A stretch of 64,000 nucleotides of DNA. It comes from Paracoccaceae bacterium. GTDB lineage: Bacteria; Pseudomonadota; Alphaproteobacteria; Rhodobacterales; Rhodobacteraceae. The notes beneath the pieces are model-generated. The model searched no databases. It saw nothing but the letters and a program-made list of their open reading frames with translations, and had not been told where the DNA came from. Below, in pieces: positions 4,042 through 13,629 of this stretch (within the stretch, counting starts at the first letter, position 1; every line of letters starts with the position of its first letter). The stretch spans positions 248,001-312,000 of the forward strand of contig JACVZW010000030.1 of assembly GCA_014654775.1 (NCBI GenBank). Reading direction: 5' to 3'. The translations under genes were made by a program, and so were the position numbers.

Positions 4042-5676
4042 TCAGGCCCGGTCAACGCGCAGGCGGAAGCGCTGGATCTTGCCGGTCTGCGTCTTGGGCA
4101 GGGCGGGGGTGAAGACCACGCGGCGGGGGTATTTGTAGGGGGCGATGACCGCCTTCACATGGTCCTGCAGCAGCTTGACCATCAGCGCATCACCCGCCTG
4201 CCCTTCGGCCAGCACGACATGCGCCTCGACGATCTGGCCACGCTCTTCGTCCGGCGCGCCGATGACGGCACATTCAAGGACGGCGGGGTGGGACAGCAGC
4301 GCCGCCTCCACCTCTGGCCCGGCGATGTTATAGCCTGCGGAGATGATCATGTCGTCGGAGCGGGCGGCAAAGTGGAAACGCCCCTCGTCATCCTGCCAGA
4401 AACTGTCGCCCGTCAGGTTCCAGCCGTCTCGCACGTAGTTGGTTTGGCGGACATCGGCCATATAGCGGCACCCTGTGGGGCCGCGCACAGCCAAGCGCCC
4501 CACCTGCCCGCGCGGGAGTTCGGCCATGTCGGGGCCGACGATGCGCGCCTCGTAGCCGGTGACAGGGCGGCCGGTGCAGCCGGGGCGGTGGTCGTCAAAA
4601 CGGTTGGTGAGGAAGATGTGCAGCATCTCGGTCGCGCCGATACCGTCGAGCATGGGTTTGCCGGTGCGGGCGATCCATTCGTCATAGACGGGGGCGGGCA
4701 AGGTTTCGCCCGCGCTGACGGCGGCGCGGAGGGAGGAGAGATCGGCCCCGTCGGCCATCGCCTTGAGCATGACGCGATAGGCGGTGGGGGCGGTGAAGCA
4801 GATGGTGGCGCGGTGTTCTTCGATGATCTGGATGAGGTTCGGGGGGCTGGCCTGTTCCAGCAGGGCCGCCGCCGCGCCGAAGCGCAGGGGGAAGATGGCA
4901 AGGCCACCCAGCCCGAAGGTGAAGGCAAGGGGCGGTGAGCCCACGAAGATGTCGTCGGGGGTGACGCCCAGCACCTCGCGCGCATAGCCGTCGGCGATGA
5001 TCAGGAGGTCGCGGTGGAAATGCATCGTGGCCTTGGGTTCGCCCGTCGTGCCGGAGGTGAAGCCCAGAAGCGCCACATCGTCGCGACCCGTGGGGGGCGG
5101 GGTGAAGCGAACAGGCTTTTTCAGCGCGATGCGGTCCAATTCGGCATCGTGGTTGGCGGTGCCGTCGAAGCCCACGACCGTGCGGAGAAAGCGGCTGCCC
5201 TTCTGGCAGGCCACCAGTTCCTCCATCAGCCGCGTATCGCAGAGGGCATGGGTGATGCGGGCCTTGTCGACGATGGCCGACAATTCGCCCGCGCGCAGCA
5301 TGGGCATTGTGTTGACGACCACAGCGCCCGCCTTGGTGGCGGCGAGCCAGCAGGCGACCATGGCGGGGTTGTTGGCGGACCGGATGAGGACGCGGTTGCC
5401 GGGTTTTACTCCGTATTCTTCGACCAGCGCATGCGCGATGCGGTTGGACCAGTCGGTGAGTTCCTTATAGGTGCGCGACCGGCCATTGCCGATCAGCGCG
5501 ATGCGGTCACCGAAGCCGCGCTCGACCATGCGGTCGGTGAGTTCCACCGCGGCGTTGAGCCATTCGGGATAGGCAAAGCCGTCACGCGGCAGGTCGGGCC
5601 ATTGGTCCGGTGGGGGAAGCGTGTCGCGGGTGAAGCTGTCTTCGTGGCCTGAGGGGCCGAGGGCGAGGTCGGTCAT
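4042..5676 (-). CDS. Aryl-CoA ligase (benzoate / 2-aminobenzoate-CoA ligase-like)
   Basis: A 544-residue AMP-forming acyl/aryl-CoA ligase. The adenylation loop FTSGTTGEPKATMHFH is near residue 190, the family segment GIGATEML in the middle, and the C-terminal catalytic lysine motif PKTQTGKIQRFRLR near the end. Overall pattern and length resemble benzoate- and 2-aminobenzoate-CoA ligases rather than fatty-acid ligases. It is the last gene of the minus-strand catabolic operon, separated from the permease by 76 nt that contain a 12-bp hairpin. Start at 5676 with AAGGTG upstream. The actual aromatic acid cannot be read from sequence; an aminated aromatic or heteroaromatic acid fits the neighbours. 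Confidence 0.85.
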   Translation of the reverse strand: MTDLALGPSGHEDSFTRDTLPPPDQWPDLPRDGFAYPEWLNAAVELTDRMVERGFGDRIALIGNGRSRTYKELTDWSNRIAHALVEEYGVKPGNRVLIRSANNPAMVACWLAATKAGAVVVNTMPMLRAGELSAIVDKARITHALCDTRLMEELVACQKGSRFLRTVVGFDGTANHDAELDRIALKKPVRFTPPPTGRDDVALLGFTSGTTGEPKATMHFHRDLLIIADGYAREVLGVTPDDIFVGSPPLAFTFGLGGLAIFPLRFGAAAALLEQASPPNLIQIIEEHRATICFTAPTAYRVMLKAMADGADLSSLRAAVSAGETLPAPVYDEWIARTGKPMLDGIGATEMLHIFLTNRFDDHRPGCTGRPVTGYEARIVGPDMAELPRGQVGRLAVRGPTGCRYMADVRQTNYVRDGWNLTGDSFWQDDEGRFHFAARSDDMIISAGYNIAGPEVEAALLSHPAVLECAVIGAPDEERGQIVEAHVVLAEGQAGDALMVKLLQDHVKAVIAPYKYPRRVVFTPALPKTQTGKIQRFRLRVDRA

Positions 5677-5712
5677 GGCACACCTTGGCGGAACGGTTGG
5701 GATAGGGGGGGT

Positions 5713-5740
5713 GCGGGGGGGCGGATGGCCGCCCCCCCGC
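5713..5740. other. Intercistronic GC hairpin between permease and CoA ligase genes
   Basis: A perfect inverted repeat with 12-bp arms (GCGGGGGGGCGG and its complement) around the loop ATGG. It lies between the permease stop (5753) and the ligase start (5676). No T-run follows on the minus strand, so it is more likely an mRNA processing, stability or attenuation element than a simple terminator. Confidence 0.7.
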
Positions 5741-5752
5741 CTTGGCGAAAGG

Positions 5753-7216
5753 TTAGGCGCGGTTTTGGCCCATGCGGGCAAAGCTCGCGGGATCGGCCTT
5801 TTCCAGCCGGAGCGCAGCCAGCCAGCCCACCAGCGCGGCCAGTGGGATGAGCGCGGGCAGGATCCAGCTGAGCCCGCCGCCTGCCGTTCCCGTCAGATCG
5901 CCGAAATTGGCGAAGATATAGAGGAACAGCGCGGCCATGATCACGCCCGAGACCGCGGGCAGGACCAGCGTGGACATCACCGGCGCCTCGCCCGCAGGCT
6001 GACGGCGGAAGAAGACGATGACGGCAAGCGAGGTCACCACCATCATCCCCAAGACGCCCAGCGTGCCGACTTGGCTGATCCATGTGAACATGTTCAGCAC
6101 CGGATCGAGACCCAGCCCTGCGAAGATGGCCAGGACAACCAGCGCGCCGATCGACTGGACGACCGAGCCGATATGCGGGCTGGAATGGGTGTCATGGGTG
6201 CGGCCGAAGGCGGCGGGCAAAAGCCCCTCGCGCCCCGCAACATAGCTGTAGCGGGCGATGTAGTTGTGGAAGGCCGAGAGCGCGGCAAAGAGGCTGGAGA
6301 CCAAGAGGATGCCCGCGATGGGGGGCACGGGGCCGCCGACATACATGTCGGCCAGCATGAAGAAATACTCGGTCGGATCGGCCAGACCGCCAATGGTGGG
6401 AATGAGGTTTTCCGCCCCCACACCCGCGATCATCAGCCATGTGGTGAAGACGAAGAAGAGACCGATCATGAGCACGGACAGGTAGGTCGCGCGGGGGATG
6501 GTCTTTTCGGGATCGCGCGCCTCTTCGGCGTAGATCGTCGTTGCCTCGAAGCCAATGAAGGAGCCGAGGCAGAAGAGGATCGCCGCGGTGAGGGACCCCG
6601 AGAAGATGGCATTGGCGTCGAAGATGTTGACGGAAAGCCCGCCTGCATCCGCTGCCCCGCCGGCGGCGAGGATGGCGAAATCGACGATCAGAACGATGAG
6701 GTATTCGAGCGCCACCAGCACGATCAGCACCTTGGCCGACAGATCGACCTGACGGTAGCCGAGGATGCCGACAAGGGCGATGGCGATCAGGCTCCAGCCC
6801 CACCAGGGCAGGTTGATGCCGAAGCTGCCGAAGACGCCCGCCGAGATGCCGCCGAGAAGGCCGATCAGGCCGAATTGCATGGCGTTATAGGCCGCCAGCG
6901 CGGTGAAGGCCGTGGCCCCGGCCCAGCGCCCGCCAAGCCCGCGCGCGGCATAGGCGTAGAAGGCGCCCGCGTTCTTGACATGCCGCGACATGGCCACGTA
7001 GCCCACCGCAAAGGCGAGCATGACCAGCGTCATGAAGAGGAAGGTCGCGGGCACGCCCGTGCCATTGCCGATGAGGAAGGCGATGGGCACCGCCCCCGCC
7101 ACCCCGGTAAGGGGTGCCGCCGCCGAAATCACCATGAAGGTGACGGCGAGCAACCCCAGCGAGTTTCGGCGAAGCTGGTTCGCCCCGCCCCCCGCAGTCC
7201 CTGTTCCTTGTCCCAT
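5753..7216 (-). CDS. APC-family amino acid/amine permease
   Basis: A 487-residue inner-membrane transporter with about twelve hydrophobic segments. The N-terminus (NSLGLLAVTFMVISAAAPLT) is characteristic of the amino acid-polyamine-organocation (APC) superfamily, as is the mid-protein FIGFEATTIYAEEARDP. It would import the substrate of the surrounding catabolic operon. Pairing an APC permease with a glutamine-synthetase-like ligase recalls PuuP-PuuA of the putrescine pathway. Start at 7216 is backed by AAGGAG six nt upstream. It follows the flavin reductase after a 90-nt gap and precedes the CoA ligase. Substrate unknown. Confidence 0.88.
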   Translation of the reverse strand: MGQGTGTAGGGANQLRRNSLGLLAVTFMVISAAAPLTGVAGAVPIAFLIGNGTGVPATFLFMTLVMLAFAVGYVAMSRHVKNAGAFYAYAARGLGGRWAGATAFTALAAYNAMQFGLIGLLGGISAGVFGSFGINLPWWGWSLIAIALVGILGYRQVDLSAKVLIVLVALEYLIVLIVDFAILAAGGAADAGGLSVNIFDANAIFSGSLTAAILFCLGSFIGFEATTIYAEEARDPEKTIPRATYLSVLMIGLFFVFTTWLMIAGVGAENLIPTIGGLADPTEYFFMLADMYVGGPVPPIAGILLVSSLFAALSAFHNYIARYSYVAGREGLLPAAFGRTHDTHSSPHIGSVVQSIGALVVLAIFAGLGLDPVLNMFTWISQVGTLGVLGMMVVTSLAVIVFFRRQPAGEAPVMSTLVLPAVSGVIMAALFLYIFANFGDLTGTAGGGLSWILPALIPLAALVGWLAALRLEKADPASFARMGQNRA

Positions 7217-7306
7217 TCGTAGCTCCTTGTTGGTTATGGGCCACGGTCTTTGCGCCGCGTGCCCCAGGGTGACCCCGGCCTCTGACGGGCCGGTGGATGG
7301 TATGTG

Positions 7307-7825
7307 TCAGACCTCGTGCCCGGGCAGATGCACCGCCCTCCGATAGGCGCGCTGGCCATAGAGCAGCGCGGCCGGTTGGTCCGACAGCCGGACGGCATGG
7401 ACACGTCCGACGATGATGTGATGCGTCTCCCACAGAAGGGCGGTGGCGAGGCGGCATTCGAAAACCGCCGTCGCGCCCGCAAGGATCGGCTGGCCCAAGG
7501 CGCCGGCGCTCCAATCCGCGCGGGCGAAGCGGGCGGCGTGGTAATTCCCGCCCCGTCCGGCGAAAAGGTCGGACAGCGCCTGCTGATCTTCGGCCAGAAG
7601 ATTGGCGCAGAAGGCGCGGTTCTTCAGGATCGCGGCGGCGGCGGGGCTTTGATTATGGATGCAGGCCAGAAGCGAGGGCTGGTCCCCATCCGCCGAGACG
7701 GAGGTGAGCGAGGAGAGCGTGACCCCTGCCCTGCCCCCGTCACCATCGGTGGTGGCAACGGCGACAAAGGTCGCCGCGCGGCTCATGCCTTCTAGAAAGC
7801 GGGCGCGGAGATCCTCCATCCCCAT
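7307..7825 (-). CDS. Flavin reductase-like FMN-binding protein
   Basis: A 172-residue protein of the HpaC/flavin reductase-like family, which supplies reduced flavin to two-component monooxygenases. Visible family features are the N-terminal SRAATFVAVATTD, TLSSLTSVSADG, the segment LLACIHNQSPAAAAI and a central FCANLLAEDQQALSDLFAG. Its start codon overlaps the stop of the glutamine-synthetase-like gene by one base, so expression is coupled. The only gene in the operon that could plausibly use reduced flavin is the acyl-CoA-dehydrogenase-fold protein at 11133-12476. The partnership is inference. Confidence 0.85.
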   Translation of the reverse strand: MGMEDLRARFLEGMSRAATFVAVATTDGDGGRAGVTLSSLTSVSADGDQPSLLACIHNQSPAAAAILKNRAFCANLLAEDQQALSDLFAGRGGNYHAARFARADWSAGALGQPILAGATAVFECRLATALLWETHHIIVGRVHAVRLSDQPAALLYGQRAYRRAVHLPGHEV

Positions 7826-9165
7826 CAGCCCAGATCGAAGAAGCGTTCGAGTTCCACATCGGGAACCTTGCGGCGGAATTCATCGTACTGCCCTTCGCGG
7901 GTGGCGGTGAAGGCCTCGACAAAGCGCGGTCCGAGCCAATCCATCGCGAAGGCGGACCCGCGCAGGCGATCGATCGCGTCGGGCATGGAACGGGCGAAAT
8001 CGCGCGCGGGGGTCTGAGCATAGCCCGAGCCCAGCGTTTCGGGATCGGGTTCGGCCTGTTCCAGAATGCCCGCCACGCCTGCCGCAAGGGTGGCGGCGGT
8101 GGTGAGGTAGGGATTGGTATCGGCGCCGGGAAGGCGGTTTTCCACCCGCAGGCTGCCCGCATCATGGCCCACGACCCGAAAGCAGGTGGTGCGGTTCTCA
8201 TATCCCCAGGTCAGGCCGGGAGGGGCGAAGGTGCCGGGGGCGAAACGGCGATAGCTGTTGACCGTGGGCTGAAAGATCAGGGTCATGTCGCCGATGTATT
8301 TCTGCAGGCCCCCGAGGAAGTGCAGGAAGGTCCGGCTGATGCCATTCCTCGCACCCGGATCGTGAAAGAGCGGCTGGCCCGCGCGGTTCTTGAGGCTGAT
8401 ATGAAGGTGGATCGACTGGCTGTCGGCCTGTTCGTTCCAGCGCGGCATGAAGGTCACCGACCGCCCCTGACGCAGGGCCAGCGCGCGGATGAAGTTCTTC
8501 AGAAGGACAAGCTGGTCGGCGGGTTCAAGCCCTTCGCCCGCGCCGATACAGGCCTCCATGAAGCCTGCGCCGATCTCTTCATGCATCTTGGCAAGGTCGA
8601 TTTTCAGCGCCTCGCACATCGCGGCGATGGCTTCGTACCATTCGGTCTGGACGGCCTGATAGATCGTCAAGTCGTGGCTGGCATGCTGGGTCGCGGGTTT
8701 GAGGTTGCGATACCCCTTGGCGCGGGCGCTTTCGGGGCTTTCGTCGAAGAGGGTGTATTCCAGTTCCATCCCGTATTTCGGGATGAACCCGGCCTCGGCG
8801 GCGCGGGTGAGGACGGATTTCAGGATGGCGCGGGGGCAGAGCTTTGCGCTTTCACCCGTGAAGTTCGACAGGACCAGAAGGTCATGCCCCGGCTTCGACC
8901 AGGGCAGGCGGCGGGTCGTGGCGGGGTCAAGCTGTAGGGGGTCGTCGTGGAAATCGCCCGTTTCGTCGTTCACGCCGGGGATCGTGAGCAGCACGTCGGT
9001 CGGGTCGAGCGACAGTTGTGCAGGCGCCATGCCCATGCCGTTCTTGGCAATGCCCTTCAGGTTGCTGACCGACACCATCTGCCCGCGCAGCAGGCCGTTG
9101 GTATCCGCCATAGCCACGGTGGCGAAGCGGCTGGAAGGATCGGCGAGGTAGTCGTCGAGTGTCAT
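7825..9165 (-). CDS. Glutamine synthetase-like gamma-glutamyl ligase
   Basis: A 446-residue member of the glutamine synthetase superfamily. Metal and ATP-site motifs are present: GMELEYTLFDES, the HLHISL strand, ENRTTCFRV and ENRLPGADTNPYL. It resembles the PuuA, IpuC and gamma-glutamylanilide synthase branch, which joins glutamate to an organic amine instead of ammonia. In this operon it probably gamma-glutamylates an amine brought in by the APC permease. Its ATG overlaps the TetR stop by four bases (ATGA), and its own stop overlaps the flavin reductase start. It is unlikely to be the housekeeping GlnA, given its sequence and setting. Confidence 0.85.
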   Translation of the reverse strand: MTLDDYLADPSSRFATVAMADTNGLLRGQMVSVSNLKGIAKNGMGMAPAQLSLDPTDVLLTIPGVNDETGDFHDDPLQLDPATTRRLPWSKPGHDLLVLSNFTGESAKLCPRAILKSVLTRAAEAGFIPKYGMELEYTLFDESPESARAKGYRNLKPATQHASHDLTIYQAVQTEWYEAIAAMCEALKIDLAKMHEEIGAGFMEACIGAGEGLEPADQLVLLKNFIRALALRQGRSVTFMPRWNEQADSQSIHLHISLKNRAGQPLFHDPGARNGISRTFLHFLGGLQKYIGDMTLIFQPTVNSYRRFAPGTFAPPGLTWGYENRTTCFRVVGHDAGSLRVENRLPGADTNPYLTTAATLAAGVAGILEQAEPDPETLGSGYAQTPARDFARSMPDAIDRLRGSAFAMDWLGPRFVEAFTATREGQYDEFRRKVPDVELERFFDLG

Positions 9166-9842
9166 GTCCCTGTCCCTGTCCTATGGGCGCTTACAAGCGC
9201 CTCTAGCTGTTCAAGATCGCGTGCCGGATCGGTGGAATAGGCGCGCAGGAAGACGCGCAGGCCATTGGTGATGTACCGCGCGAGGTCACCCCGCCCCGGC
9301 ACGGCATCCGGGCGATAGAGTGCCTGATTTCGCGGGGCCGACAGGATCAGACCCCAAAGATCCTGCGCGGCCAGTTCGGGATCGTCGAAGGCAAGGCGCC
9401 CGGCGGTGCGCTGGCCATCGAGATAGGCCATGATGCCTGCGAGCAGGCGGTCCGGGCCACTGGCCTGATAGGCGCGGCCGATTTCGGGGAAACGCTGCAC
9501 CTCGCCGATGATGAGGCGGGCGAGGGAGAGCATCTCGGGGCGCATGACGACATCGGCATAGTCCCAAGCGAAGGCGTGCAGGTCTTGGACCATGCCGCCC
9601 TCCGAGGGGTGGTCGAAGACGGACATCATGCGGTCGCGCTGACCCAGCATCATGGCCTGGAACAGGGTCTCTTTGCTGTCGAAATACTGGTAGAGCGTGG
9701 GTTTCGACAGGCCGACGGCGGCGGCCACGGCATCCATGGTGGTGCCGGAATAGCCTGCCTGCGCGAAAACGCGCAGCGCCCCGTCGAGGATGCGCCGCGT
9801 CCGTTCTGCCCGGTTCTGTTCGCGGCGCGAGAGCATGGTCAT
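9162..9842 (-). CDS. TetR-family regulator of the catabolic operon
   Basis: A 226-residue TetR-type repressor. The N-terminal helix-turn-helix is clear: RRILDGALRVFAQAGYSG followed by MDAVAAAVGLSKPTLYQYF (about residues 14-52). The C-terminal ligand domain is divergent and resembles the AcrR C-terminal type. It lies in the middle of the operon with four-base overlaps on both sides, so it is probably autoregulated with the pathway. A perfect 7-bp-arm inverted repeat just upstream of the first operon gene (13566-13583) is the natural candidate operator. Confidence 0.9.
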   Translation of the reverse strand: MTMLSRREQNRAERTRRILDGALRVFAQAGYSGTTMDAVAAAVGLSKPTLYQYFDSKETLFQAMMLGQRDRMMSVFDHPSEGGMVQDLHAFAWDYADVVMRPEMLSLARLIIGEVQRFPEIGRAYQASGPDRLLAGIMAYLDGQRTAGRLAFDDPELAAQDLWGLILSAPRNQALYRPDAVPGRGDLARYITNGLRVFLRAYSTDPARDLEQLEALVSAHRTGTGT

Positions 9843-11128
9843 GCGGGCAGACCTGCGAGGAAATCGGTCAGATGGCGGGAATAGGCGGCAGGCTGTTCAA
9901 GGTTGCAGACATGGCCCGCGTCTTCGATCACCTCAAAGCGGACGTCGGGGCGGCGAGCGCTGTCCCAGATGCGGCCCGCGACGGCGCGGATTTCGGCGGG
10001 CGGGGCGAGGCGGTCATGTTCGCCCGTCATCATCAGAACGGGCATAGAGAGGTGCGCGAAATCGAAGCGTTCGCGCGGATTTGTAAAGCAGAGGAGCGCG
10101 TCGCGATAGGTGGGCGCGGGGATCGCCGACATGGAGGCCAGCAGTTCGGCGCGGACGGCATCGGATGCGCCGGGGCTGGCCAGAACCTTCACCACGGCAG
10201 GCGCGAAATCGGCGGGCACCTGACCTGCGTTCAGGGGCACTTCGCGCGACAGGCGGAAGGCCTCGCGTTCCTCTGGCCCCGCCTCGGACATGCCGGTGCA
10301 GCCGCCCGATAGGACGAGACCGTCAAGCAGTTCGGGGTGGCGCATGGCGAAGGAGGTGGCGATCCACGACCCGTAGGACAGGCCCACGAGGACGAGGCGG
10401 CGCGCGCCCAGCACCTCCATCACGCGCAGGATGTCGGCGCAGTAGTCGTCGACGCTGGATTGGGTGGGGCCGAGCGTGCTGTCGCCATAGCCGCGCAGGT
10501 CCAGCGCGGCGGCACGGATGTGCGGGGCGGCGGCGCAGAGTTGGGCGCGCCAGTTGCGGCGACCCCCGCCGATGCCGTGCAGGAAGAGGCAGAGCCTGCC
10601 GCCGCCCCGATCAGGCGTGACGGAGAGGGCAAGGCGGGGGAGATCGTCGATGACCCGCTCTTCGATCGGGATCAGGGGGTGGGGGGGGTCCGGGGGGGTG
10701 CTGGGCACCCTCCCGGCCTTGGCCAAGGCCGCAATGCCTGCCTCGAACACCGCGCGGGTGCCGTCGCAGATGGCCTGCAGGCGGGGCTGGGGCGCGGCGA
10801 TCTGCGCGGTCCAAGTGACGGTGCTGCCACCCGTTTCGGAGGGCGTGACGGTCACGCGGGCATCATAGGCCTCGCAGCCCGCAATACCTGCCAAGTGGGT
10901 ATAGGCCAGCGTGCGGTCGCTGTCGGACAGGTAGGTCCGCTGTTCGCGGTAGAGCGTCGCCTCGCCCTTGACGGTGAAACTGCGGATCAGGTGGCCCTGC
11001 GCGTCACGGTCGGCGCGGATGGTGTCGATCCACGGATGCCAGCCGCCCGCGAAATCGCGCAGCAGGGCCCAGACCGCCCCTGCCTCGGCGGGGAGTGCCC
11101 CATGGACATGGACGCCCTCGCGCGGCAT
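9839..11128 (-). CDS. SRPBCC domain - alpha/beta hydrolase fusion
   Basis: A 429-residue two-domain protein. Residues about 1-140 look like an SRPBCC/polyketide-cyclase (START-like) ligand-binding fold (VHVHGALPAEAGAVWALLRDF, then EQRTYLSDSDRTLAYTHL). Residues about 170-429 are an alpha/beta hydrolase with oxyanion segment HGIGGG, nucleophile GLSYG, acid GEHDRLAP and base DAGHVCN, so the triad looks intact. In the nicotinate pathway the step after NicX is done by the alpha/beta hydrolase NicD (N-formylmaleamate deformylase); this could be the counterpart here. The start at 11128 is 4 nt after the upstream stop. The fusion is unusual and the substrate is unknown. Confidence 0.8.
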   Translation of the reverse strand: MPREGVHVHGALPAEAGAVWALLRDFAGGWHPWIDTIRADRDAQGHLIRSFTVKGEATLYREQRTYLSDSDRTLAYTHLAGIAGCEAYDARVTVTPSETGGSTVTWTAQIAAPQPRLQAICDGTRAVFEAGIAALAKAGRVPSTPPDPPHPLIPIEERVIDDLPRLALSVTPDRGGGRLCLFLHGIGGGRRNWRAQLCAAAPHIRAAALDLRGYGDSTLGPTQSSVDDYCADILRVMEVLGARRLVLVGLSYGSWIATSFAMRHPELLDGLVLSGGCTGMSEAGPEEREAFRLSREVPLNAGQVPADFAPAVVKVLASPGASDAVRAELLASMSAIPAPTYRDALLCFTNPRERFDFAHLSMPVLMMTGEHDRLAPPAEIRAVAGRIWDSARRPDVRFEVIEDAGHVCNLEQPAAYSRHLTDFLAGLPA

Positions 11129-11132
11129 GGAC

Positions 11133-12476
11133 CTAGCGCAGCCCCTTGAGCGCGCCCGCATCCCCGCGCCAGAGCGAGTTGCGCGCACCGCCCTCGTCGC
11201 CGGGGGCATCGTCGATCTCGTCCATGTCGTAAAGCGTCAGGATGGACAGGTAATCCTCCATGATTTCAGAGGTGTAGGGCAGCATCAGCGCGCCGCAGCG
11301 GCTGTCGCGATACATCCTCTCCAAGGGCAAGGAGCGCAGCATGGACTGCCCGCCGCAGGTGCGGATGGCCATGCTTGTCATCTCGGCCGCGCCTTCCATG
11401 ACGTTATACTGGGCGGCATACATGCGCATCACCTCGGCCTTGGTGGGGAAACCCTTGGCTTCGGAAAAGGCCTGCCACCAGAGCGCGCGCATATTGGCGA
11501 GGCGGGCATACATCTTGCCCACGGCGATGCGCTTGGTGGCATACATGCGGCGGTCGATCGGGGGTTGGCCGGGCACCTGCCCCTTGAGATAGGCCACGGT
11601 GAAATCGAAGGCCCCCTGGGCGACGCCCATATAGGTGGGCGACAGGGTGGCCATCATATGCGGCCAGTTGGGTAGGGTCTTTCCGAAGATGCCGCGGGGC
11701 ATCAGCAGGTCTTCCGCCGTGACGACGACATCCTTTAGGATCAGGTCGCGGCTGTTCGTGCCACGCATGCCGAGCGGGTCCCAGTCGCCCTTCACGCTGA
11801 GCCCCGGCGCATCCTTGTGGACGACGAAAAGCATCGTGTCCTCGTGCCGGGGGTCAATGCCGTCGAACACTTCGGTGCAGACGATGGTATAATAGTCGCA
11901 ATAGCCCGCGAGGGAGGCGAATTTCTTGAAGCCGTTGATCTTCCAGCCGCCCTCGACGGCGCGGCACTGGGTCTGGTTGGGCTTCGACGTCCAGTTCTGC
12001 CCGCCTTCCGAAATGGGCTGCGAATAGATCGCCCGTTCGGCCACGGCGCGGCGGAACTGGCGTTCGCGGAGGGGGGCGAAGGCGGCCTTTTCCTCGGGCG
12101 TCAGATTGGGCATTTCGAACATGAAGCGCGACCATGCCATCGACGAGTTGTGCATGTTGAAAGTGAGCGCGGTCGCCCCGCAATACTTGGCGATCTCGGC
12201 CCCGACCATGGCGTATTCCCCCATGGAAAAGCCCATGCCGCCATATTCTTGCGGGATGCAGAGGGTCAGGAACCCCGCCTCGGCCAGATCGCGGTAATTG
12301 TCGACCGGGAAGGAGGCCTCGTCATCCACGGCCTTGGCGCGGGCGGCGAAGGTCGCGCCCATCGCATTGACCTTTTCGAGCATCGCCAGCACTTCGCGCC
12401 GGATGCGCGAGAGGTCGTAATAGTCTCCCGGATGGCTCATGGGCATGGCGGCGGCGATGGGGCGCTGTTCGGTCAT
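11133..12476 (-). CDS. Acyl-CoA dehydrogenase-fold flavoprotein, possibly a two-component monooxygenase
   Basis: A 447-residue protein with the acyl-CoA dehydrogenase fold: AEAGFLTLCIPQEYGGMGFSMGE at the N-terminus, a central flavin region near QPISEGGQNW, and a C-terminal segment with RTCGGQSMLRSLPLERMYRD. The usual catalytic Glu after the final Tyr is not obvious: LPYTSEIME stands where dehydrogenases have YEGT, and the alternative Glu of the isovaleryl type is also not evident. Flavin monooxygenases of this fold (DszC, HsaA types) lack that base and need a flavin reductase, which this operon encodes. Its ATG overlaps the NicX-like stop by four bases. A true dehydrogenase role is not excluded. 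Confidence 0.75.
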   Translation of the reverse strand: MTEQRPIAAAMPMSHPGDYYDLSRIRREVLAMLEKVNAMGATFAARAKAVDDEASFPVDNYRDLAEAGFLTLCIPQEYGGMGFSMGEYAMVGAEIAKYCGATALTFNMHNSSMAWSRFMFEMPNLTPEEKAAFAPLRERQFRRAVAERAIYSQPISEGGQNWTSKPNQTQCRAVEGGWKINGFKKFASLAGYCDYYTIVCTEVFDGIDPRHEDTMLFVVHKDAPGLSVKGDWDPLGMRGTNSRDLILKDVVVTAEDLLMPRGIFGKTLPNWPHMMATLSPTYMGVAQGAFDFTVAYLKGQVPGQPPIDRRMYATKRIAVGKMYARLANMRALWWQAFSEAKGFPTKAEVMRMYAAQYNVMEGAAEMTSMAIRTCGGQSMLRSLPLERMYRDSRCGALMLPYTSEIMEDYLSILTLYDMDEIDDAPGDEGGARNSLWRGDAGALKGLR

Positions 12477-13555
12477 GGGGCAAGCTCTCCTTGCAGAACG
12501 CCGTCACGCACGACGACGCGCCCGTCGAGGGCGATGGTGCAGTTGCGCATCGGCAGGTCGAAATGGCCTAGCGTGTAGCGCCCGGCATATTGGTTGGCGC
12601 CGGTGGACCAGAGGAAGGACCCGGCGATGGCGCGGAATTCGACGGCCTGCATGTCGCGCTTGTCATACATTGCGGCCGAGACCCATTTCGCGCCGGGATT
12701 CATGCCCCAGCCGACATGGGACATGCCGTAAGCGTTCCGGTCACCCCAGGCTTCCATGTATTCGCGGAAGTGGAGGGCATCGATGCCGTCGCCCTTGATC
12801 GCGGTGACGAAGTCTTTCTCGACGGTGATGTCGATCCGGCTGGTGAGGACGGTCTTGAACGTGAGGTTCATGTCGCCGACATCCATCACGATGCGGCCAT
12901 TGACCGCCTCTTTCCCCGGAAAGGCGAGGCAGAGGCCACCTGGCCAATGCGCCACCGCGCCGGGCGTGGTGCCGAAGCCAGCCGTCCCGCCGCAGGGCGC
13001 GCCGCGCAGATCGACCGTGAGGTCGGTTCCGGCGGCAGAGGTGACGCGCATCTCGGACGCCTCGCGCAGCATCTGGATGCCGAGCTGGAGCTTGATGTTG
13101 TCTTCCGCCTTGGGTTCGGTGCGTTCGAGGATTTCGGGATGTTCATTGGTGATGACGAGAAGACGGGTGCGGCCCGCCCCTTCGATCTCGGGCCATTCGG
13201 GGGCGTGGATCAGGCCTTCGACGGTGCAGTCGACGATGATGTCGACGCGCTTCAATGCCTCGATCACCGCGCGGTTCCCTTGGATCGCCCAAGAGGTGCC
13301 GGTGGATTTGACCGGAACAGGGGCGGTCTGCGGCGGGGTGGGCATGGAGATCATGCAGAAGGAGGCGCCAAGGTCATAGGCGGCCAGTTCTGACAGATGC
13401 ACCAGAACGGGGCGCGACTGCGTTTCCGACAGGATTGCGACCTCTGTCCCCGGCCCGATCCCGTTCAGCGCGAAGACACGCCGAAAGGCGGCAAGCCATT
13501 TGCCTTCGATGCGTTCTTGAAGCATCGCCACCATCCCTGTTGCATCGATTCGCAT
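12473..13555 (-). CDS. 2,5-dihydroxypyridine 5,6-dioxygenase-like (NicX / M29-like) protein
   Basis: A 360-residue protein of the NicX family, iron enzymes related to M29 aminopeptidases that open the 2,5-dihydroxypyridine ring. As I remember NicX, matching stretches include the metal-site-like YGMSHVGWGMNP, a later HFDLPMRNCTI, plus VMDVGDMNL and SFLWSTGANQ. Glu/His/Asp ligand candidates therefore appear conserved. It is the first gene of an eight-gene operon, just downstream of a palindromic operator. The start at 13555 gives family length; a second Met at residue 8 is possible. An aminopeptidase annotation is likely from automatic pipelines but fits the context less well. Confidence 0.72.
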   Translation of the reverse strand: MRIDATGMVAMLQERIEGKWLAAFRRVFALNGIGPGTEVAILSETQSRPVLVHLSELAAYDLGASFCMISMPTPPQTAPVPVKSTGTSWAIQGNRAVIEALKRVDIIVDCTVEGLIHAPEWPEIEGAGRTRLLVITNEHPEILERTEPKAEDNIKLQLGIQMLREASEMRVTSAAGTDLTVDLRGAPCGGTAGFGTTPGAVAHWPGGLCLAFPGKEAVNGRIVMDVGDMNLTFKTVLTSRIDITVEKDFVTAIKGDGIDALHFREYMEAWGDRNAYGMSHVGWGMNPGAKWVSAAMYDKRDMQAVEFRAIAGSFLWSTGANQYAGRYTLGHFDLPMRNCTIALDGRVVVRDGVLQGELAP

Positions 13556-13565
13556 GTGCGAATTT

Positions 13566-13629
13566 CTTAACTTTTGAGTTAAGTTTTCACGGGGGCGGTT
13601 AGTCTGTCAACAGAAACTTCAAGCTTGAA
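13566..13629 (-). promoter_or_regulatory. Operon promoter with TetR-type operator and second palindrome
   Basis: At 13566-13583 lies CTTAACTTTTGAGTTAAG, perfect 7-bp arms with a 4-nt spacer, ending 11 nt before the NicX-like start codon. On the minus strand a TTGACA -35 element sits at 13610-13605, and a weak -10 (AAACTT) about 18 nt later overlaps the repeat. A second perfect palindrome, TTCAAGCTTGAA, is at 13618-13629. Binding by the operon's TetR protein is inference. Confidence 0.55.

Follow-up and report, generated by a model that had tools for sequence, protein, structure and literature searches.

In this study, we analysed a 64,000-nt stretch of DNA from a Paracoccaceae bacterium (hereafter the window, meaning this whole stretch: positions 248,001 to 312,000 of contig JACVZW010000030.1, assembly GCA_014654775.1), which carries eight co-directional open reading frames (ORFs), all on the minus strand, that form a real and conserved operon, catabolic and probably functional. 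At chances that we put close to even, this operon encodes a route of hydroxylation, NicX-type ring cleavage and hydrolysis in which glutamate captures an amine, with an N-substituted (hetero)aromatic acid as substrate; homarine (N-methylpicolinate) is the leading candidate for that substrate, and is put forward tentatively. The catalytic steps, their order, the substrate and the pairing of the TetR-family regulator with its operator are deduced from gene content, conservation, individual residues and the operator. Profile searches (Pfam and NCBIfam) returned the gene set and order given in a preliminary description of this DNA: a NicX-family dioxygenase, an acyl-CoA dehydrogenase (ACAD)-fold protein, an SRPBCC-hydrolase fusion, a TetR protein, a glutamine synthetase (GS)-like ligase, a flavin reductase, an APC-family permease and a CoA ligase. 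The stop and start coordinates likewise bear out one coupled unit in which an overlap or a 4-nt spacing marks five of the seven junctions, with 4-nt overlaps between nicX-like and ACAD genes (12473-12476), hydrolase and TetR genes (9839-9842) and TetR and GS genes (9162-9165), a 1-nt overlap between GS and flavin reductase genes (7825), and a 4-nt gap between ACAD and hydrolase genes (stop 11133, hydrolase ATG 11128). Longer gaps precede the last two genes, about 90 nt before the permease gene and 76 nt before the ligase gene (ATG 5676), and the longer program-called starts at 11209 and 5781 are not likely. The nicX-like ORF is open from 13555; its ATG at 13525 is the more likely start because 13555 falls within a leader hairpin and the extension is interrupted by a stop at its fifth codon in the congener G002. 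The operon is flanked upstream by a chemoreceptor-like gene and downstream by an acetyl-CoA-synthetase-like (acs) gene.

The operon is patchily present in the genus and conserved where it occurs. Of 19 genus genomes, six carry the NicX-like gene and exactly these six the GS-like gene; the full gene order is retained in all five congeners with the operon (protein identity 77-97%), and the CoA ligase is present in all six genus operons. The rate of nonsynonymous substitution (dN) was well below that of synonymous substitution (dS) in 40/40 gene-by-genome comparisons covering all eight genes, with a ratio of at most about 0.25. Since the acs flank is common to only one of the five congeners, the cassette occupies different genomic places. 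In G002 (L013:8266-9689) the hydrolase gene is split over two reading frames, and this copy may be broken or misassembled. Beyond the genus, a contig scan recovered at least 519 relatives among 593 candidates, of which the best 80 were kept; together with 26 of 37 further stretches (the 11 left out were lower-scoring or nic-cluster copies) they made up 106 loci, divided into clade I (69 loci, nicX identity at least 62%) and clade II (37 loci below 62%). Gene counts per locus are tblastn hits, not curated genes, loci whose contig ended too soon were dropped from each count, and upstream counts include either strand. Downstream of nicX in clade I we counted the ACAD gene in 66/68 loci, the hydrolase in 63/64, TetR in 59/61, GS in 47/58, the flavin reductase in 42/57, the APC permease in 31/57 and the CoA ligase in 6/53, and the first six genes were all present in 42/57; at L084 the ACAD gene is absent beside nicX. 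The unit conserved outside the genus is these first six genes, five enzymes and one regulator. Gene order is conserved in relatives, as the preliminary description expected. The CoA ligase is encoded in the operon as it had stated, but at 6/53 its standing as an integral part is not supported, and it was rejected as a core gene. Clade I carriers include Rhodobacterales, Rhizobiales, a SAR116 cell (L056), Leucothrix, Oceanospirillaceae and Thiotrichaceae, and the family as a whole (clades I and II, above 430 bits) occurs in 26/385 genomes of the class and 19/398 of the phylum in evenly drawn samples.

The predicted Fe(II) ring-cleavage dioxygenase (12473..13525, minus strand) matches NicX (7cn3) with 198 bits in phmmer, and by sequence it is a NicX relative and not an M29 peptidase. 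No Pfam family, Peptidase_M29 included, was listed for this protein (P0001) at E up to 10, in a search whose HMMER filters drop most weak matches. M29 aminopeptidase identity was thus rejected, in keeping with the preliminary description; the annotation 'peptidase M29' carried by plasmid relatives conceals this ring-cleavage family from pathway surveys. According to passages of PMC7910607, NicX binds Fe(II) through His265, Ser302, His318 and Asp320, and contacts its substrate 2,5-dihydroxypyridine (DHP) through Glu177, His189, Leu104 and His105, with Glu177 binding N1 and O1 of DHP. In an alignment of 91 family sequences, which counts two loci twice (L015/L054, L016/L024), the equivalents of the Fe ligands are H280 in 91/91 and S317, H331 and D333 in 90/91 with one gap, the His105 equivalent is kept in 91/91, and that of His189 in 89/91, with Tyr in the other two. 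The position of Glu177 holds Thr in 75, Gly in 11, Val in 3 and Ser in 2 sequences and never Glu, compared with Glu in 10 and Gln in 2 of the 14 outgroup rows (Ser in L142, Ala in L143), and the tree splits all 14 outgroup rows from clades I and II with support 100/99. The maleate isomerase gene nicE was not found in the six operon-bearing genus genomes searched. Because Glu177 is replaced in 91/91 and the genus genomes searched yielded no nicE, the protein is probably not a DHP enzyme; the DHP route was rejected on these grounds, and the nicotinate-like ring of the preliminary description is not supported. The small residue at this position would leave room at the ring nitrogen, and we read the substrate as differing from DHP by a larger group in place of its N-H and O. 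The position of Glu177 is one residue through which the substrate choice of NicX enzymes could be probed directly. An AlphaFold model of the protein (pLDDT 74, pTM 0.75) was not used as support. The NicX-like proteins of L142 and L143 fall between the present family and canonical NicX and have Thr at the His189 position; both loci have a FAH-like match nearby, and L142 also a bicupin-like match.

The ACAD-fold protein (11133..12476, minus strand; Pfam ACAD N, M and C domains) is a probable oxygenase component of a two-component flavin hydroxylase, judging from its residues and its partner gene. It carries Pro, in 13/13 aligned sequences, in place of the Glu that we take to be the catalytic base of acyl-CoA dehydrogenases, and ACAD-type proteins are its best matches in the PDB, where nitrososynthases score about 87 bits. 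The putative partner is the RutF/HpaC-like flavin reductase (7307..7825, minus strand; PF01613 117.5 bits, RutF and HpaC models below cut-off). The hydrolase (9839..11128, minus strand) joins an SRPBCC domain (PF10604, residues 12-138) to an alpha/beta hydrolase (PF00561/PF12697, residues 181-416). Three side observations concern these proteins. In nine Rhizobiales loci (L043-L048, L050, L069, L103) the end of the flavin reductase matches a LysR effector domain, a fusion seen by Pfam in L043 (L043:15715-16881) and by annotation in L103, and this C-terminal substrate-binding domain without a DNA-binding domain suggests effector-gated reduction. A single ORF of about 650-665 aa takes the place of separate hydrolase and TetR genes in L073 (12354-14312), L075, L077, L080, L081 and L085; in L073, where Pfam was applied, the ORF comprises SRPBCC, alpha/beta hydrolase and TetR, an enzyme joined to its own regulator. 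Finally, the ACAD protein has an isolated relative (43-44% identity) on a Dolichospermum plasmid (L115:9968-11215), where the annotation shows neither a NicX nor a hydrolase gene within about 10 kb.

The GS-like protein (7825..9165, minus strand; PF00120 274 bits) keeps the metal, ATP and Glu residues in 8/8 family members. Positions 50, 53 and 327, presumably the ammonia site, are A/S, Q/T and F, so that this site is lost in 8/8 (the alignment is gappy near 50). By these residues the protein would be a glutamate-amine and not an ammonia ligase; since seven non-GlnA GS reference sequences also lack the ammonia site, the loss does not identify the amine. In a 14-row tree the seven rows of operon GS proteins fall into a single clade (support 100/99) that groups with neither PuuA nor TdnQ, and identity is 29.6% to TdnQ, 27.7% to GlnT and 24.5% to PuuA. 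The PuuA/aniline type assigned to it in the preliminary description was therefore abandoned in favour of a clade of its own, similarly distant from both. The remaining two genes encode the APC-family permease (5753..7216, minus strand; PF00324/PF13520) and a benzoate/anthranilate-CoA-ligase-like AMP ligase, which we regard as accessory (4042..5676, minus strand; TIGR02262 358.3 bits, cut-off 375.25 not reached). The best PDB match of the latter is the anthranilate-CoA ligase 4wv3 (276.9 bits), with benzoate-CoA ligases at 234.7-252.9 bits.

In the route that we propose, the operon would import a small N-substituted (hetero)aromatic acid, the flavin reductase would supply reduced flavin to the ACAD-fold oxygenase, and the ring would be hydroxylated. 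The NicX-like Fe(II) dioxygenase would then cut the ring C-C bond beside the nitrogen, which is C5-C6 as numbered for NicX, to give an N-formyl product, from which the SRPBCC-hydrolase would take off the formyl group, unless it hydrolyses the ring-cleavage product in some other way. The GS-like enzyme would join glutamate to the released amine, or else to one that the substrate itself carries. That the ring substrate is N-substituted is suggested by the glutamate-amine ligase, by the pocket freed at the nitrogen and by N-methyl genes in a few relatives: N-methylglutamate-synthase-like genes, 31-55% identical to the glxBCD genes from a glnT cluster, occur in the fetched stretch of 4/69 clade I loci (L063, L068, L080, L084) and 0/37 clade II loci, and adjoin the operon in L068, L080 and L084. 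For homarine, we derive that C5-C6 cleavage with loss of C6 as formate would leave an N-methylglutamate skeleton, putatively by way of N-methyl-2-iminoglutarate, which would go on to N-methylglutamate or to 2-oxoglutarate and methylamine; the GS-like ligase would catch the methylamine as gamma-glutamylmethylamide. A homarine operon, homABCDER, has reportedly been described in Nat Microbiol in 2026, with five enzymes, a regulator and N-methylglutamate as product, and its carriers are said to be Rhodobacterales, SAR116 and SAR11. The operon described here may be that homarine operon, and is either its member in this genus or a close new relative; the route, called unrecognised in the preliminary description, is thus uncertain in its novelty. 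Our literature search, which missed most subscription papers and the 2026 homarine paper, turned up no account recognisable as this operon. A part for Mgd in homarine catabolism is mentioned in a passage of PMC13390433, which cites Ferrer-Gonzalez et al. 2026.

Several points weigh against the proposed route and against homarine in particular. At least one of the six core genes is missing from 15/57 clade I loci, and nicX at L083 stands without an adjoining ACAD or hydrolase gene. The ACAD-fold protein scores higher against NCBIfam dehydrogenase models (FadE16 113.7 bits, acryloyl-CoA reductase 108) than against oxygenase models (HsaA 66, DszC 50.7), all of them far below cut-offs, so that its oxygenase role is something we infer from the lost Glu and the reductase; a true acyl-CoA dehydrogenase is thought unlikely since the usual Glu is missing, yet it is the dehydrogenase models that score best. 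Moreover, the N-methylglutamate-synthase-like genes occur near only four loci, at L063 about 4 kb off and across a repC-like gene, and the GS-like ligase and GlnT are not orthologues. Homarine leaves the anthranilate/benzoate-CoA-like ligase of the genus unexplained, and likewise the bicupin gene that lies upstream of nicX in 21/58 clade I loci. The identity with the homarine operon is put forward tentatively.

Among the other explanations, it is conceivable, if doubtful, that the family is a second class of NicX-fold dioxygenase without Glu177, which would cut N-substituted or benzo-fused rings beside the nitrogen, with a dedicated glutamate ligase recycling the amine. If so, together with the bicupin module it would supply missing amine-to-gentisate genes and would be distinct from the homarine operon. 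We regard as rather unlikely a route for an aromatic-amine acid, in which an aminobenzoate-like compound would be gamma-glutamylated, much as TdnQ does with aniline, hydroxylated by the ACAD protein with its reductase and ring-opened, with gentisate on the side or downstream where the bicupin module is present. Such a route could be the genetically unknown branch from anthranilate through 5-hydroxyanthranilate to gentisate, which is traced back to Cain 1968 in a passage of PMC4539516, and whose enzyme and gene are given as unreported as of 2018 in part of PMC6221969. It would account for the anthranilate-CoA ligase as best match of the CoA ligase, for the bicupin upstream of nicX, which in Aminobacter scores 562 bits against gentisate 1,2-dioxygenase (3bu7), and for a TdnT/PuuD-type GATase-I gene that adjoins the GS or reductase gene in L122 and L073. 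However, the bicupin was found in only one of the six operon-bearing genus genomes and not in G000, therefore gentisate is not the usual next step in the genus; the four-gene bicupin module is complete in 11/58 clade I loci by the queries used, the CoA ligase is rare outside the genus, and the GS-like ligase is no nearer to TdnQ than to GlnT.

The hybrid of the preliminary description, in which amine uptake, glutamylation and CoA ligation would belong to one eight-step route, seems improbable. The low dN of all eight genes and the ligase in every genus operon would fit it, but the ligase and the permease are variable outside the genus and both stand behind the longer gaps; that description was accurate as to the genes and partly wrong in its mix of pathways. 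Quite improbable, too, is a benzo-fused N-heterocycle, for which a 3-hydroxyindole would be made by the ACAD protein with its reductase, cut at C2-C3 by the NicX-like enzyme to an N-formylanthranilate, and deformylated by the hydrolase to anthranilate. The small residue for Glu177 would make space for the benzo ring, the regiochemistry of NicX would map onto C2-C3 of indoxyl, the hydrolase could serve as a NicD-like deformylase, and the ligase is anthranilate-CoA-like; against this, nothing named an indole oxygenase appeared among the model and structure matches listed for the ACAD protein, lists that do not hold every such enzyme, and the GS-like ligase and the N-methyl genes would have no role. 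Co-occurrence of kynureninase was rejected as proof, being over the cut-off in 18/19 congeners regardless of the operon and therefore uninformative. Ordinary nicotinate or DHP-type ring opening with unusual accessory genes, to which the retained Fe ligands and 36-39% identity to NicX of the nic clusters L112 and L114 might point, is very unlikely in view of the Glu177 replacement, the separate clade, the six operon-bearing genus genomes in which nicE was not found, and an operon without any nicC, nicD, nicE or nicF product, of which the preliminary description had correctly noted the lack of nicC, nicE and nicF.

Upstream of nicX lie, in order, the -35-like TTGACA of the promoter (13605..13610, minus strand), a palindrome CTTAACT-N4-AGTTAAG near the expected -10/start region (13566..13583, minus strand), and a hairpin ATTCGC-ACAT-GCGAAT between the palindrome and the start codon (13548..13563, minus strand). 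The TTGACA precedes the operator by about 17-23 nt in many relatives, and the palindrome, a probable TetR site, is the only such site in the window and in G000. A degenerate operator pattern stands before nicX in 40 of 73 leaders, a sample that includes the contig-end artefacts L065 and L078. The pattern occurs at one place each in 8/9 genomes searched, in G000 only at this operon, and at two places in G593, where the second site has no operon gene nearby. A reversed control pattern matched twice across the nine genomes, with G000 accounting for one match, therefore the operator is argued by position and not by mere presence. A hairpin stem of at least 5 pairs was found in 35 of the 43 operator-bearing leaders (12.9 expected by shuffling), and its arms vary in sequence across species while pairing persists. 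On the simple reading, the TetR-family protein (9162..9842, minus strand; PF00440 with a PF14246 AefR-like C-terminal domain) is a probable autorepressor that would act at the 13566-13583 operator to shut down the operon encoding it.

With respect to neighbouring genes, the bicupin module, which also encodes a FAH protein, a NIT4-like nitrilase and a second flavin reductase and is accompanied by a GntR gene, was observed at L103:10281-13901, L026, L032, L043, L164 and other loci; the Aminobacter nitrilase matches NIT4 with 354 bits, and in the genus genome G014 the module with its GntR gene sits on another contig. Upstream of the operon in L080 are DAO-GCV_T, aldehyde dehydrogenase, old yellow enzyme (OYE) and amidase genes, and in L103 (Aminobacter aminovorans plasmid pAA02) a gene annotated as tyramine oxidase subunit B lies upstream and OYE-type and GCV_T genes downstream. 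A second operon type of NicX-like, alpha/beta hydrolase, ACAD and AMP ligase genes was seen in clade II (L116, L123, L125, L127, L130 and others), where nicX is followed by genes for all three of hydrolase, ACAD and CoA ligase in 13/32 loci and, by the queries used, a MarR-type gene upstream in 8/34 and a reductase in 7/34. No GlnT-type or operon-type GS match was found in the 37 clade II loci, and three annotated ones have transporters of NMT1-ABC, TRAP and Tct types. The AMP ligase of L018 is nearest to feruloyl-CoA synthetase. On a Rhizobium daejeonense plasmid (L113:2691-10595), a NicX-like gene with Gln at 177 is accompanied by an HpaB-like hydroxylase, two amidases and a GMC oxidoreductase, which is possibly another pyridine route.

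Since many Rhodobacterales and Rhizobiales species carry the operon, as does a SAR116 genome, its substrate is probably a nitrogen compound that is common in nature, and if this is homarine or a similar N-methylated food, the operon would be useful and not wholly new. Compared with known systems, it shares with NicX and the nic pathway of Pseudomonas putida KT2440 the dioxygenase family, the Fe ligands, the His105 equivalent and a nearby hydrolase gene (NicD there), but differs in its lack of a Mo hydroxylase, NicC, NicE and NicF, in the replaced Glu177, in its separate clade and in its ACAD-type two-component hydroxylase candidate. The aniline system TdnQ-TdnT-TdnA1A2B also has a GS-like ligase in an aromatic operon, which the GATase-I gene near GS in L122 and L073 recalls, whereas the GS here is distant from TdnQ and no Rieske oxygenase is present. 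The putrescine route of PuuA and PuuP likewise combines a GS-like ligase with an APC permease, yet PuuB, PuuC and PuuD are absent from this operon and the GS identity to PuuA is lower still than that to TdnQ. GmaS-MgsABC-Mgd resembles it in a GS-family amine ligase, and MgsABC-like genes lie near four relatives, but the GS here is no GlnT-type orthologue and Mgs and Mgd are outside the window operon. The steroid ring-opening set HsaABCD is alike in its ACAD-fold oxygenase, flavin reductase, ring-cleavage dioxygenase and alpha/beta hydrolase; the dioxygenase here is a NicX relative and not an HsaC-like extradiol enzyme, and a GS-like ligase is present. With homABCDER, which reportedly has five enzyme genes, one regulator and Rhodobacterales and SAR116 carriers and yields N-methylglutamate, the operon would have these features in common, and the APC permease and the CoA ligase would be extra here.

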